Part shown: piece by piece, positions 21,881 to 27,639 of the stretch
Position numbering within the stretch: position 1 is the stretch's first letter
Layout: each line of letters starts with the position of its first letter
Source of the DNA: a virus
Reading direction: 5' to 3' (one strand)
DNA length: 29,315 nt
IMG/VR virus record: IMGVR_UViG_3300032205_000013
Coordinates: 1-29,315 of that record
Made by a program: the position numbers and the translations under genes
Notes under the pieces: generated by a model
Databases searched by the model: none
What the model saw: the letters and a program-made list of their open reading frames with translations, nothing else
What the model was told of the DNA's origin: nothing

Positions 21881-22211
21881 GTCCCGATTCAACCTCCGGT
21901 GATTCAACCTGCCCGCGACTCTGGACATCGTCACGCGGCGGCTGCCACCCGAGCGACCGGAGCCACCGCCGCGCGTATTGCTTTACCGTCGCCATCGCGA
22001 TCGCGAATTCCTGGTCGCCGTCCTCGCTCGTGTCCACCTCGACGATCCGGATGATCGCCACCTCGAACCGCTTACCGGGCGGCAGCTTTTCCTGCGCCGG
22101 CGCCTCGAGCGGTGTGCCCCGCTGGGCGCGCTTGCAGTGCATCGCGCAGAGGCCGCTCGCGAGGTCCGGGCGCGCGGGGCGGTCGCATCCGTCGATGCGG
22201 CAGTCGCTCAT
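21678..22211 (-). CDS. Cys-rich protein overlapping the small terminase
   Basis: The frame starts with ATG 22211 (ATGA overlap with the gene before). It encodes MSDCRIDGCDRPARPDLASG followed by LCAMHCKRAQRG, a compact C-x4-C...C-x2-H-C cluster like small zinc modules of phage HNH or recombination proteins. The part KRFEVAIIRIVEVDTSEDGD and ATVKQYARRWLRSLGWQPP looks coding. The last 65-85 codons lie out of frame over the small terminase and are Arg/Gly-rich, as expected of a shadow. The true C-terminus may have been lost to a frameshift, or the overlap may be real. No function is assigned. Confidence 0.6.
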   Translation of the reverse strand: MSDCRIDGCDRPARPDLASGLCAMHCKRAQRGTPLEAPAQEKLPPGKRFEVAIIRIVEVDTSEDGDQEFAIAMATVKQYARRWLRSLGWQPPRDDVQSRGQVESPEVESGRVEGKGTNGTSGRAARPSARFAQSRKDLRGDREEAGRVHAGRARARHDGARAVAHADGRGRGQGPRS

Positions 22212-22768
22212 CCTGCCAGGACCGTGCCGAGTTGGTCGTTGGTGGCTGTCGCGTCGGAGAGTTGCTGCTTCAGCGTAGCCTGGAGCTTCTTCGCTGCGTC
22301 GAGATCGATCCAGCTGCTGAGAGTCAAATCTCCGGGATTGACGTCGATCCGCATCTGCACCATCTGCGCCGGCTTGGTCGATCCGCCAGAGCGGTAGATG
22401 CCCTGCTTCTTGTACTTGTACGCCATGCCCTGTGGAATGGTGATCCCGGTCCAGTTGACGAGCTGCTTGTTGGCTTGGCGATCCCATAGTTTGATATAGC
22501 CATTTGTGTCGGTAGCCCACTTCGTTACCAACCTCCAACGGAACGGCTGCTCGACGACGATGGGCGTGCTGAAGAGAAAGAAGGTCCCCGTCGAGTCGCG
22601 CGGATCGTCGATGGTGACGTTCGGCCCGTGAACGGTGATCCCGCCGAATCCCTGATTGCCGTGATCGGGCCAGTCGTCGGGCGGATGGAATTGCATCAAG
22701 ACCGCCCAGCGGTGATCGAACGGGAACCCGGTCTTGAACAGGAAGGCCAGATCTACCGTCTCCAACAT
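22208..22768 (-). CDS. Polysaccharide-lyase-like (concanavalin-fold) protein, N-terminus frameshifted
   Basis: The frame from ATG 22768 gives 186 residues: LAFLFKTGFPFDHRWAVLMQ then FHPPDD, GNQGFGGITVHGP, PFRWRLVTKWATDTNGYIKL and GMAYKYKKQGIYRSGGS. The order QFH, W...G.IKLW, Y.K.GIYR resembles heparin-lyase-I-type polysaccharide lyases (Polysacc_lyase). The reading frame stays open upstream of 22768 (SSLKGNSPYNVKPG), with no usual start codon before the next stop. A well-placed start exists in another frame at 22866. The intact gene therefore probably spans 22866-22208 with a -1 shift. Enzymatic activity is not proven. A glycan-binding or depolymerase role is inferred. Confidence 0.7.
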   Translation of the reverse strand: MLETVDLAFLFKTGFPFDHRWAVLMQFHPPDDWPDHGNQGFGGITVHGPNVTIDDPRDSTGTFFLFSTPIVVEQPFRWRLVTKWATDTNGYIKLWDRQANKQLVNWTGITIPQGMAYKYKKQGIYRSGGSTKPAQMVQMRIDVNPGDLTLSSWIDLDAAKKLQATLKQQLSDATATNDQLGTVLAG

Positions 22769-23419: not shown

Positions 23420-23940
23420 GCCGCTCCCTTCCGCCCGCGAGTTCGCGCGAGCCCCATCCGCACGCCGTCGATTCCCTGGTCCACGCTCCGCACGCCACCG
23501 ACGTACACGCCTCCTGCAGCCACGAGCCGAGCGCCCCACGCCCGCTGGGTAATGCACGAGTCGCAGCCGCAGCCGTCCTGGTGCGAGTTCTTCGTCTCCA
23601 GCGCGAGGAAGATGCCGTCCGGCGCGGCCCAGCCGATGACGTCGCCCATGCCCCGCTCGGGGCGCTGTCCGTTGCGCTGGCGGGCTCCGCCGCAGTCCAG
23701 AGCCGTGACGTGGATGCCTGGAATCACGTTCAGCCGCTCGACGAGCGCCGTTGCGAGCCGCTGCTCCGGAGCATTCGCCGCGCACCAGCGTCGCGGGTCC
23801 ACGGAGAGCAGTTCCGCCGCCTTCGGACAGGCGTGCGCCTTGACGGACGCGGCGTGCTCTTCGCAGAGACGCTGGCCGCAGCAGACGGCCTTCCGGGCGG
23901 GCCGGCGCTGGCAGTTCGCGATCGAGCAGCCGCGGGTCAT
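23416..23940 (-). CDS. Zinc-cluster PD-(D/E)XK (VRR-NUC-like) nuclease
   Basis: A 174-residue protein starting at ATG 23940, overlapping the helicase stop as ATGA. Residues 1-40 are Cys/His-rich (Cys5, 10, 20, 21, 26, His29, Cys38), a probable zinc site. The catalytic pattern is Gly-Asp100 (GMGDVIGWAAPDG), then Glu115-x-Lys117 (LALETKN), and Gln132 with Trp135 (TQRAWGARLVAAGGVYVGGV). Spacing fits VRR-NUC/Holliday-resolvase-type PD-(D/E)XK nucleases. A second Cys cluster at 124-129 (CGCDSC) lies just after the ETK motif. The likely role is branched-DNA processing during replication or packaging. The chain with helicase and initiator supports this. Substrate unknown. Confidence 0.78.
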   Translation of the reverse strand: MTRGCSIANCQRRPARKAVCCGQRLCEEHAASVKAHACPKAAELLSVDPRRWCAANAPEQRLATALVERLNVIPGIHVTALDCGGARQRNGQRPERGMGDVIGWAAPDGIFLALETKNSHQDGCGCDSCITQRAWGARLVAAGGVYVGGVRSVDQGIDGVRMGLARTRGRKGAA

Positions 23941-25358
23941 GGGTACCGCTCCGTCGGTGGCGGCACGTCGCGGAAGCGCTCCCGCTCGAGGAGCGATTGC
24001 TGCGCCGGAGGCTCGTCGGCCGGATGGTTCCGGTAGGCAGTCAGGTGCGGCGCCCAGAGCGCGCGAGCGGTCGCCGGTGCTGGACCCATGCGCTGCTTGC
24101 CGATGATGATTTCCGCGTCGTCCGAGTCCTTCGGGCGCCAGGGGAAGATCACGACGTCCGCGTGCGCCTCGACTGCGCCGCTCTCGCGCAGGTCGGAGAG
24201 CTGTGGCCTGCCGCCAGGGCGCTTCTCGAGCTCGCGATTGAGTTGGACGCACAGGATCACCGGCACGCCGAGCTCGCCGGCCAGATTCTTCATCGCCTCC
24301 GCGTTGAGTCCGACCGCCTCGTCCCGCGTCTTCGCTTTTTCCGGCCAGGGCATCAGGCCGAGGTAGTCCACGACGACGAGCCGCAACCGTCCGTTGAGCA
24401 ACCGCGAGAGACGGCGCGCTTTCGAGCGCATCTCGAGCGCCGGGATGCCCTTCTGGTCGTTCACATGCAGGTCGAGTTGCGCGAGTTTTCCCGCGCCTTC
24501 GTTCAGCCGCGGCCAATCCGACTCGACGAAGTTTCCGGTTCGCAAACGGCCGAGCGCGACGCCAGCGAGTTGCGACATGAGCCTCGTCCGGATCTGGTCG
24601 TAACTCATCTCGAGCGAGAAGAACGCCGCCGCTCCGCCCTTCTTCGCCGCCTCGATCGCGCATCCGAGCGCGAGGCTGGTTTTCCCAACTCCCGGTCGCG
24701 CGCCGATGACGACCAGGTCGCCGTTCTGGAACCCGGTCGTGAGCTTGTCGAGCGAGTCGAGGCCGCTCGGAACTCCGGTCACGTCGCTGCGGTGCGCGTA
24801 GAGCTCATTCAGCGCGACGAGGTACTTCGGGATCCCTTCCCGGGCTTCCCGGAACGAGTGACGGTCTCGACTCGCTGCAATTGCGAAAAACCGCGCCTCT
24901 GCCCGTCCGAGAAAATCGGCGACGTCGTCCCGCTGCTCGTACCCTTCTGCCGCGATCGCGTGAGCCGCCACGATCGCGCGGCGCAGGTCGGATTTCTCTC
25001 GGACGATCCGCGCGTAGTACCCGAGGTTCGACGCCGACGGGACGACCTTGTCGAGCAGGTCGATCGCGTCTTCGCCTCCCGCCGCCTCGTAGCTGCCGAT
25101 CTCGGTCAGCCTGGCTTTCAGGGTGATGCGGTCGATCGGCTCGTGCGAGACCGACAACGAGACCATCGCTTCGAAAACCTTGCGATGTGCTTCTCGATAA
25201 AAATCGGCAGCGCCTACTATTTCGCAAACATCGTCGATTGCGGAGTTGTCGAGCAGGATGCCGCCGAGGAGAGATTGCTCAGCATCGAGCGCTTGCGGCG
25301 GAACACGGCCGAACGGAGCCGGTGCGAGAGGGACAACGTTGGCCATCGACTCGCTCAC
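23937..25358 (-). CDS. dnaB: Replicative DNA helicase, DnaB type
   Basis: A 473-residue protein of usual DnaB length. The N-terminal domain opens PPQALDAEQSLLGGILLDNS (residues 20-39). The linker region precedes TGVPSGLDSLDKLTTGFQNG. Walker A is GARPGVGKTS (219-228). FFSLEMSYDQIRTRLMSQ follows. Walker B is LVVVDYL (327-333). VPVILCVQLNRELEKRPG and PQLSDLRESGAVEAHADVV are the conserved C-terminal motifs. It should form a hexamer that unwinds phage DNA, loaded by the initiator encoded just upstream; the two genes overlap by four bases. A second ATG lies four codons in, so the start is slightly uncertain. Confidence 0.95.
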   Translation of the reverse strand: MSESMANVVPLAPAPFGRVPPQALDAEQSLLGGILLDNSAIDDVCEIVGAADFYREAHRKVFEAMVSLSVSHEPIDRITLKARLTEIGSYEAAGGEDAIDLLDKVVPSASNLGYYARIVREKSDLRRAIVAAHAIAAEGYEQRDDVADFLGRAEARFFAIAASRDRHSFREAREGIPKYLVALNELYAHRSDVTGVPSGLDSLDKLTTGFQNGDLVVIGARPGVGKTSLALGCAIEAAKKGGAAAFFSLEMSYDQIRTRLMSQLAGVALGRLRTGNFVESDWPRLNEGAGKLAQLDLHVNDQKGIPALEMRSKARRLSRLLNGRLRLVVVDYLGLMPWPEKAKTRDEAVGLNAEAMKNLAGELGVPVILCVQLNRELEKRPGGRPQLSDLRESGAVEAHADVVIFPWRPKDSDDAEIIIGKQRMGPAPATARALWAPHLTAYRNHPADEPPAQQSLLERERFRDVPPPTERYP

Positions 25359-26395
25359 AGGATGCGTTTGGCAGCTAGAGCGGCGAATGCCGGTGCGAGG
25401 CGTTTCTCGACTTCTTCCTTCGACAGGCGAGGTCCTGGTTCGCCCATCTGCTCGGCCATCATGCGTTTCGTCTCCTCGGGTGAGCGATAGCTGCCGTCGT
25501 TCGGCGGCTCGTCGGACGCGGTTCCGTGCTCGAGCTTCTTCGCCTCACCGCGGATCATCGAGAGTACGTAGCTCGGAGGATGCTCTCCGGGAGCGTGGTT
25601 GCGGCGGATGTACTCACGAGTTCCGGCGAGCCGTGCTTCAACCGGAAACTTCAAGCTCGCGACTACGAACTCCTGCCACGCAACGTCGCTCGCTTCGGTC
25701 AGCGTTCGTCCGAGTTTGCGACGCAGTTCGGCAAGGACGTTGGTCGGCCACGGTTTTTGATCTTCGTGCGCGCGTACTGGCTTGGCATGGTTAGGAACGG
25801 CTAGGCACGGAGTGACCGATTGTGACGCAACGTGACCGTTCGTGACTTTCCGTCCCGTTTCGTGACCATATGTAGTCACGTTTCGTGACTCTTGGCCGTT
25901 CCGCAAGTCGCCGCTTGCGTCGTCGTCGCGAATTGACGCGTCGCGACTGTCACGATTTGTGACTTCTTCGTCGGATCCGTTTTCGACATCGGTCACGTTT
26001 TGTGACTGAGACGAACGTGCCGATTCTGAGGCCGACGAGCTGCCCCCGTATTGGGCTCGCGCGCGCTCGCGGGAGTCCCTTTTCCTGGCTGCCGTGCTCC
26101 GCGCGCATTCCTGGGCTTCGAGGTAGTTCGGGACGAGAAACGCGGCGTGCTCCTCGTCCCACCTGAGACAGCCATCGGCCAGCAATTCCTCGAGCGCGTC
26201 CTCGATCTCGGCCCAGGGGCCGTGCACCGCGACGGAGAGGCCGCGCTTGCCGAGCTTGCCGACACAGATGACGCCGACGCGGTCCGCGGCTCTGAGGATG
26301 AGCCCGAAGAGGCCACGGGCGCGCCAGGAAAGCGCGAGCCACTCGGGCGTATCGCGCGTGTAGAAGCGGACGTATCTCTCGTCTTCCCAGCGCAC
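25355..26395 (-). CDS. Replication initiator with winged-helix N-terminus
   Basis: The preferred start is GTG 26395, with AAAGGA seven bases upstream and 22 bases after the previous stop, giving 346 residues. ATG 26485 would add 30 residues and overlap that gene. Residues 1-110 (RYVRFYTRDTPEWLALSWRA, RGLFGLILRAADRVG, ALEELLADGCLRWDEEHAAF) match the winged-helix start of phage replication proteins. Residues about 130-195 are low-complexity and rich in Val-Thr, Asn, Asp and Ser. Their DNA is a repeat array that is probably the origin. A C-terminal helical domain follows (LGRTLTEASDVAWQEFVVAS). By analogy with lambda O it binds the origin inside its own gene and loads DnaB. Confidence 0.82.
   Translation of the reverse strand: MRWEDERYVRFYTRDTPEWLALSWRARGLFGLILRAADRVGVICVGKLGKRGLSVAVHGPWAEIEDALEELLADGCLRWDEEHAAFLVPNYLEAQECARSTAARKRDSRERARAQYGGSSSASESARSSQSQNVTDVENGSDEEVTNRDSRDASIRDDDASGDLRNGQESRNVTTYGHETGRKVTNGHVASQSVTPCLAVPNHAKPVRAHEDQKPWPTNVLAELRRKLGRTLTEASDVAWQEFVVASLKFPVEARLAGTREYIRRNHAPGEHPPSYVLSMIRGEAKKLEHGTASDEPPNDGSYRSPEETKRMMAEQMGEPGPRLSKEEVEKRLAPAFAALAAKRIL
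25812..26006. repeat. Iteron-like array, candidate replication origin
   Basis: GTGAC pentamers begin at 25812, 25822, 25832, 25842 and 25862, an exact 10-base rhythm with a degenerate unit (CGTCCC) at 25852. Then come three 15-base palindromes, GTCACGTTTCGTGAC (25875-25889), GTCACGATTTGTGAC (25949-25963) and GTCACGTTTTGTGAC (25992-26006). The stretch is more A/T-rich than its surroundings and lies in the low-complexity middle of the initiator gene, as in lambda-type origins. Confidence 0.75.
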
Positions 26396-26402
26396 CGGCG
26401 GT

Positions 26403-26408
26403 TCCTTT
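26403..26408 (-). promoter_or_regulatory. Ribosome binding site deciding the initiator start
   Basis: AAAGGA on the minus strand lies seven bases before GTG 26395 and after the stop of the coiled-coil gene. It favours GTG 26395 over the upstream ATG 26485, which has no comparable site and lies inside the previous gene. Confidence 0.6.
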
Positions 26409-26695: not shown

Positions 26696-27391
26696 CTACG
26701 CTGCCCTCCGCAGCGGCCAATCCCGATTGCACGTCTCGTTCTTTCCCTGCCGCCGGAAGTAGTCTTCGAGGCTCGCGGCCTGCTCGGCGTACCAGCGCGC
26801 CTGCGCCTCCTGGAGATCATCGAGGCGCATCGCGCCGATTTCCGGGAACCGCTTTGCGATCCGGTAGGCGACCCGTGCGGCGGCGATCGCGTCGGCTCCG
26901 GCATCGTGCGCACCCTCGAGCGTGACGCCGTAGTGCGCGCAGAGAGCGGACAGCGTCCTCTTGCCTTTGCGGAACCGATCGACGTGCTTGTCGAGGACGA
27001 ACGGGTCGATCACGTGGCCGATGGAAAGCGCGGGGATCGCGTGCCGCCGCGTCTCGCGGTCGATGACGGTCAGGTCGTAGCAGGCGTTCATCGCAACGAC
27101 CGGCTCGCCGTGCATCCACGCGTGCCGTAGCTCGGCGGAGATCTCCATCACCGCCTTGGACGCGGGCATTCCCTCGGCGCGGGCCCGCTCGGTCGTGATG
27201 CCGTGGATGGCGGAGGCCTCGGCCGGGATCTCGACGCCGGGATCGACGAGCCAGGTCCTCGCGTCCGGCAACTCGCCGCCGCCGACGTGGGCGACGTGGG
27301 CCTGAACGATGCGGGCCTCGCACGGGTCCGGAGCGGTCGACTCGACGTCGAAGGCGCACAGGCGGCGCTCGTGCCAGGGCGCGGCGCTCAT
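26696..27391 (-). CDS. DnaQ-like DEDDh 3'-5' exonuclease
   Basis: A 231-residue protein starting at ATG 27391, overlapping the previous stop as ATGA. Exo I is FDVEST with Asp15 and Glu17. HGIT is at 63-66. Exo II is MNACYDL with Asp106. Exo III is HDAGAD with His162 and Asp167. All five DEDDh residues are present. The body matches the Pol III epsilon/RNase T superfamily. C-terminal residues (QARWYAEQAASLEDYFRRQG) extend past the fold. It probably trims or proofreads DNA during phage replication; no phage polymerase is encoded in the window. Upstream open frame is a shadow. Confidence 0.9.
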   Translation of the reverse strand: MSAAPWHERRLCAFDVESTAPDPCEARIVQAHVAHVGGGELPDARTWLVDPGVEIPAEASAIHGITTERARAEGMPASKAVMEISAELRHAWMHGEPVVAMNACYDLTVIDRETRRHAIPALSIGHVIDPFVLDKHVDRFRKGKRTLSALCAHYGVTLEGAHDAGADAIAAARVAYRIAKRFPEIGAMRLDDLQEAQARWYAEQAASLEDYFRRQGKNETCNRDWPLRRAA

Positions 27392-27639
27392 GCTGCGCAC
27401 CTCTCCATGAGCTTCCGGGCCTTCTTGGGCAGCTTGACCTTGATGAGGCCGCGCGAGACCGCGTACCGCTCGAACCAGACGCGCGGAGGCCAGCGCCCGT
27501 AGACCTGTCGGTAGCGCTGGATAGCGATGCAGAGCTTGCTCCCGCAGACTTCCTGCGGACGCCCGCGGTGGCGTTCCTGCTCGAACGGTTCGAAGCAAAT
27601 GACGCAGGTCCGGTGCCAGCGAAGGTCCGCGCTATCCAC
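27388..27639 (-). CDS. Small Cys-rich protein
   Basis: An 83-residue basic protein starting at GTG 27639, overlapping the end of the membrane-protein gene by eight bases. Cys pairs CVICFEPF and VCGSKLC near residues 12-36 are spaced like a small zinc-binding knuckle. Then comes RYRQVYGRWPPRVWFERYAV and a Lys/Arg-rich tail. No family name is assigned. It could bind nucleic acid, given its charge and its place in the replication block. Confidence 0.7.
   Translation of the reverse strand: MDSADLRWHRTCVICFEPFEQERHRGRPQEVCGSKLCIAIQRYRQVYGRWPPRVWFERYAVSRGLIKVKLPKKARKLMERCAA

Follow-up and report, generated by a model that had tools for sequence, protein, structure and literature searches.

The middle of the replication initiator gene in virus contig IMGVR_UViG_3300032205_000013 (29,315 bases, analyzed over its whole length and called the window here) very probably contains the replication origin of the phage, written into the codons of the initiator's own linker. 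The initiator would bind GTCAC sites there, the DNA would open at an adjoining tandem pentamer repeat, and the replicative helicase would be delivered to the opened strand. This reading is based on the repeats themselves, which keep their order and spacing among homologs and accompany the N-terminal domain of the initiator, on the drift of the half-site, and on an operon that includes a helicase or loader gene; binding, opening, and delivery are the steps that we infer from them. The best reading is a lambda O-like or pSK41-like origin lying in a disordered linker, with a GTCAC lattice and without an AT-rich region.

GTCAC sites inside the initiator gene

The features of the gene and its surroundings, in window coordinates, are as follows.

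26403-26408, minus strand: likely ribosome-binding site AAAGGA, before the GTG start (sequence)
25355-26395, minus strand: initiator gene, 346 aa, GTG start (sequence and structure model)
26108-26347, minus strand: winged-helix DNA-binding domain, residues 17-96 (structure model, pLDDT mostly 95-98; alignment A1)
26045-26095, minus strand: basic helix, residues 101-117 (structure model)
25992-26006, no strand: palindrome 1, GTCAC-N5-GTGAC (sequence)
25949-25963, no strand: palindrome 2, GTCAC-N5-GTGAC (sequence)
25875-25889, no strand: palindrome 3, GTCAC-N5-GTGAC (sequence)
25852-25866, no strand: degenerate palindrome GTCCC-N5-GTGAC, whose GTGAC (25862-25866) doubles as the opening unit of the direct array (sequence)
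25812-25866, minus strand: direct array, GTCAC at 25862, 25842, 25832, 25822, and 25812, with 25852 degenerate (sequence, shuffles)
25777-25811, minus strand: pentamer element TCCGT GCCTA GCCGT TCCTA ACCAT GCCAA GCCAG (5-bp autocorrelation)
25361-25744, minus strand: helical C-terminal part, a putative helicase or loader contact (structure model)
23937-25358, minus strand: DnaB-type replicative helicase (Pfam DnaB_C, E 5e-71), its start overlapping the initiator stop

The boundaries of the initiator gene are consistent with one another: there is a GTG at 26395, the protein start (MRWEDERYV) resembles that of homologs, and the stop overlaps the DnaB start. Judged from these sequences, the GTG is most likely the true start. 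Residues 120-217, coded by the origin-like segment, form a disordered linker in the model. The protein had no significant match in Pfam or PHROGs, and the RepA_N domain (pfam06970) did not match it at E ≤ 1. Fold matches to solved structures were weak (CRP/FNR type; MDR initiator 4pta, E 0.25) with none below E 0.001, and the nearest folds in the viral library were replisome organizers and initiators. A CRP-like fold combined with a half-site resemblance (TGTGA) was dropped because the matches were weak. Elsewhere on the minus strand, a gene like the exonuclease subunit of DNA polymerase (PHROG 192, E 4e-39) lies upstream of the initiator at 26696-27598, and 22208-22768 codes for a predicted polysaccharide lyase (PF14099, E 8e-9), possibly a capsule- or surface-degrading enzyme.

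On the plus strand, GTGAC is found at 25812, 25822, 25832, 25842, and 25862. The initial annotation had described five GTGAC units in 10-base phase; all five are in phase, but they are four consecutive units, a gap where lattice position 25852 reads GTCCC, and a fifth unit. The three GTCAC-5-GTGAC palindromes that it listed are exact, and they are the only exact GTCAC-N5-GTGAC sequences in the 29,315-base record. They lie off the strict 10-bp grid on which the direct units are placed: from 25862, it is 13 (or 23) bp to the neighboring palindrome. Counted along the coding strand of the gene, GTCAC occurs at offsets 389, 432, 506, 529, 549, 559, 569, and 579, and GTGAC at 399, 442, and 516. In the coding direction, three palindromes are thus followed by the degenerate palindrome, which opens the direct array of 10-bp units.

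Across the window, GTGAC occurs about as often as expected (68 versus 65 copies) and forms a single cluster, in the initiator gene. That gene contains 11 GTCAC/GTGAC sites and, at a 10-bp spacing, 6 pairs. After dinucleotide shuffling, the gene had on average 2.7 sites and 0.008 such pairs and never more than 9 and 1; after synonymous-codon shuffling, the averages were 4.9 and 0.36, and none of 5,000 shuffles reached the observed values. The cluster is neither a chance nor a coding effect. Since a 10-bp step is no whole number of codons, each unit is read in a different frame from the one before it and specifies different residues (VT, xH, xS); among homologs, the sites are spread over all three frames (174/132/86). 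This means that the constant element is the DNA word and not the peptide.

The neighborhood is also conserved. A DnaB gene was present in 21 of 40 homologous records, always downstream and on the same strand (21 out of 21) and mostly at the distance expected for the next gene, and a DnaC-like loader was present in 10 of the 19 records without DnaB. The GC skew minimum falls near the array, at 26810, but was set aside as origin evidence because the contig is fragmentary and most of its genes are on one strand.

The sites might instead be operators inside the gene, through which the initiator or another phage regulator controls transcription of the replication operon, with the origin elsewhere. 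Many winged-helix proteins are indeed regulators, and the nearest solved folds are of the CRP/FNR type. However, the array is remote from the gene start, at 390-584 bases; it is directional and runs into a phased 5-bp repeat; and the only gene seen to be conserved alongside it codes for a helicase or loader. Moreover, sites of this kind serve as origins for lambda O and pSK41 Rep, known initiators with a similar fold and layout (PMC7466680, PMC5703833). Operator control is unlikely on this evidence.

Homologs and conservation of the layout

Searches with the single window protein, whether by protein pattern among viral contigs or by tblastn among phages and plasmids, found no relatives. The DNA pattern recovered homologs that these searches had missed. 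Four exact GTCAC units at 10-bp steps were present in at least 120 viral stretches, compared to 22 for the reversed control word CACTG, and most viral matches lay inside genes of ∼900-1200 bases, typically about halfway along them. After masking of the repeat region, homology to the window N-terminal domain was found for 13 of the proteins recovered in this way, at up to 50% identity (E 1e-24). Among the remaining array-bearing proteins, representatives matched phage replication initiation, replisome organizer, and O-like PHROGs (391/3729/1408). Chromosomal matches, about half of which resemble plain 5- or 10-bp tandem repeats, were excluded as evidence. The L099 protein has an extra segment, YFLLDDEAGLVKIGYT..., between the winged helix and the array, which may be an inserted GIY-YIG/T5orf172-type domain.

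Homologs retrieved by protein alone provide an unbiased test of the DNA pattern. Alignment of the N-terminal domain fetched 72 loci, 65 of them nonredundant and 62 of these complete; most are metagenomic contigs. A tighter alignment (A3, replacing the divergent A2) returned almost exclusively very similar copies and was given no weight for independence. First, when all pentamers were scanned in the 65 homologs, GTCAC ranked top for direct 10-bp pairs, with 142 pairs in 45 genes, whereas the best pentamer unrelated to it gave 17. Second, the spacing spectrum had sharp peaks at 10 both for direct pairs and for GTCAC-to-GTGAC (78 palindromes). Third, among the 62 complete genes, 58 had at least four sites, 42 had a palindrome, and 41 had a direct 10-bp pair, compared to no palindromes and no direct pairs for the control CACTG; eight lacked an exact GTCAC-form pair at 10 bp. 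Finally, in the 29 genes with both elements, the palindromes came first in 28 and the direct array came last in 26. The mix of direct and inverted sites, which the initial annotation considered unusual, is instead the rule of the family, and the conserved order and elements make the window a typical member. The comparison of repeat spacing in related phages that it had suggested gave a conserved 10-bp geometry, which supports an origin-like array. By these sequence comparisons, the three-part layout of palindromes, direct array, and pentamers recurs in dozens of diverse phages.

The half-site itself can change: some homologs have no GTCAC but show the spacing with a different word. In L302, GTTAC palindromes and direct units are followed by CCTAGCCTAGC, with the same CCTAG pentamers. 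L287 has GACAC at 10-bp steps, at a level reached by none of 300 codon shuffles. Two distant members of a second N-terminal family have an AACGC lattice, L272 (1 of 300 codon shuffles) and, more weakly, L431. A change of half-site at constant geometry is what would be expected from coevolution of an initiator and its sites.

A natural domain swap was found among cultured phages. Evi, phi1, pAEv1818, Marin, and 5399 share an E. coli-type N terminus, and all five have arrays, as two GTCAC clusters in the same place and 260 bases apart, one in the codons of the N-terminal domain and the other in those of the linker. No lattice and at most a few scattered sites are present in seven phages that have just the C terminus in common with them (Rac-SA53, pPE4, PPompW, Chris1, TL-2011b, epsilon15, and phiV10; up to 94% identical). 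In this comparison, the sites go with the N-terminal DNA-binding domain and not with the C terminus. In the plasmids pSK41 and pPR9, the N terminus and the origin are likewise replaced together as a unit (PMC5703833). The earlier proposal of an origin-like iteron array inside the initiator gene is thus supported: the array is conserved, accompanies the DNA-binding domain, and retains its spacing even where the half-site is a different word.

A second alternative is that a different phage or host protein binds the sites, which would explain the recurrence of GTCAC in several initiator families. At least two N-terminal families have GTCAC arrays, and profile comparison supports their homology weakly (hhalign probability, 54), so that these families may or may not be related by descent; arrays also occur in short proteins with no obvious winged helix (L062, L032, and L038). 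Against this, individual homologs have GTTAC, GACAC, or AACGC in place of GTCAC at unchanged geometry, and the presence of the array tracks the N-terminal domain. Both are expected if the initiator reads the sites, and a separate binder appears improbable, slightly more so than operator control.

Further array-bearing proteins were observed outside the main group. In L062, L032, L038, L024, and L164, all short proteins, the N terminus does not resemble a winged helix and seems to be made up of helices with a basic stretch. Additional initiator-like families (L083, L112, and L123; L011 and L117; L025) have the GTCAC 10-bp array in the linker and are not joined to the main group by sequence. The GTCAC site may have been taken up repeatedly by separate initiator families. 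The second N-terminal family is also modeled as a winged helix, and a basic helix comes after it. The Phage_rep_org_N profile (PF09681) gave hits to 2 of 13 window-type members (best E, 0.028) and 1 of 8 E. coli-type members (4e-5), and the C terminus of homolog L022 matches the O-like PHROG 391 and phi80 gp15.

The pentamer element and the proposed mechanism

The strongest 5-bp autocorrelation of the entire window gene (P = 0.0009) belongs to the pentamer element, located right after the last GTCAC. This adjoining repeat was missed in the initial annotation. Most homolog genes also have a tandem 5-bp repeat directly after the last GTCAC, with the consensus GCYKW (GCCTA, GCCGT, and similar). 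In the 45 bases after the array in 43 genes, the 5-bp autocorrelation was 0.48, compared to 0.28 in shuffles (z about 20), and 3-bp periodicity was suppressed; control stretches before and after gave no signal. The element was present in 30 of 41 homologs and absent from 11. The second family (E. coli and Burkholderia types) has purine pentamers such as TAGAG AAGAG AAGAG at the same position (z 9.5, in a set that had been selected by the array). A GCYKW repeat after the array was also seen in L281, L319, and L312.

These data bear on a third alternative, very improbable, that the repeats are a by-product of protein-level selection on a low-complexity Val-Thr/His/Ser linker or a simple tandem repeat: the linker is disordered in the model and about half of the chromosomal matches resemble simple tandem repeats, but synonymous shuffles never reach the observed values, the three frames give different residues from the same DNA word, the spacers between units vary, and the periodicity after the array is 5 bp and not 3 bp.

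An AT-rich opening region was looked for in the window and not found; the pentamer element is 60% GC and has no weak-melting peak. In some homologs, a C-tract/C-tract/G-tract element such as CCCCCCTTACCCCCCTGAGGGGG (hairpin or triplex-like) occurs ∼30-50 bases after the array. It was found only in a minority, 5 of 42 and 5 of 25 genes (versus 0.24 and 0.03 in shuffles), namely, L276, L284, L319, L339, L342, L013, L014, L017, L020, and L194, and it is absent from the window.

For the proposed origin, the following sequence of events can be envisaged. The N-terminal winged-helix domain would bind GTCAC half-sites, and dimers on the palindromes would nucleate the complex. The direct array would be occupied by a head-to-tail row of protomers, spaced every 10 bp and oriented towards the pentamer repeat. 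The complex would strain or open the DNA at that repeat (25777-25811), one strand of which may be held in 5-base steps, and the C terminus of the initiator would hand DnaB, the product of the next gene, onto the opened strand. The proposed assembly on palindromes and array is well supported by comparison among homologs. The opening step is suggested by two analogies, that of DnaA boxes with DnaA-trios and that of DnaD, for which single-strand recognition is described (PMC10201434). More tentatively, the pentamer repeat could take the place of the AT-rich region, as an element at which the strands are opened in a sequence-specific manner, with the initiator (or its C terminus) holding one strand in 5-base steps. 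This would make it an independently arisen phage counterpart of the DnaA-trio, and the origin class one that is spread over many phages; such an interpretation is possible but rather doubtful.

The layout probably represents a viral replication origin of an undescribed type, recognizable from sequence alone. No description of the GTCAC signature was found in the openly accessible literature searched, and an earlier description may exist elsewhere; the same literature yielded no binding, footprint, or replication data for any member. The signature, GTCAC every 10 bp and then 5-bp repeats, serves as a pointer to both origin and initiator in many uncultured phages, even those whose proteins no database recognizes. 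Since it is also present in cultured phages of E. coli, Pseudomonas, and Aeromonas, opening without an obvious AT-rich region is directly testable. The half-site drift at constant geometry constitutes a natural data set on initiator-site coevolution under coding constraint.

Comparison with known systems

The lambda-type origin (ori-lambda in gene O; phi80 gp15 sites) is similar in that the initiator gene carries its own iterons in the middle, a helicase-delivery gene follows, and the iterons adjoin the presumed opening region. However, lambda has four long inverted-repeat iterons and an AT-rich region, whereas the window has a GTCAC 10-bp lattice mixing palindromes with direct units and a GC-neutral pentamer repeat, and its protein has no sequence match to the lambda O family. 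The RepA_N plasmid origin of pSK41 shares the winged-helix N terminus and the central position of the origin boxes in rep, in a dispensable linker (PMC5703833). In addition, the N terminus and origin of pSK41/pPR9 can be swapped as a unit (PMC5703833), as seen here for the E. coli-type phages. The window protein, however, is not a RepA_N protein, the boxes and their spacing differ, and the gene lies in a phage operon with a DnaB or DnaC-like gene.

Among phage replisome organizers (Phage_rep_org_N, PHROG 391/3729/1408), fold and genomic role are alike, and other array-bearing subfamilies match them, whereas the window-type N-terminal domain falls below the Pfam cutoff. Finally, the arrangement resembles the DnaA boxes and DnaA-trio of bacterial oriC, where double-strand sites run straight into a short one-strand tandem repeat. 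Here, however, the repeat unit is 5 bases instead of 3, no DnaA protein is involved, and the reading of one strand is putative.
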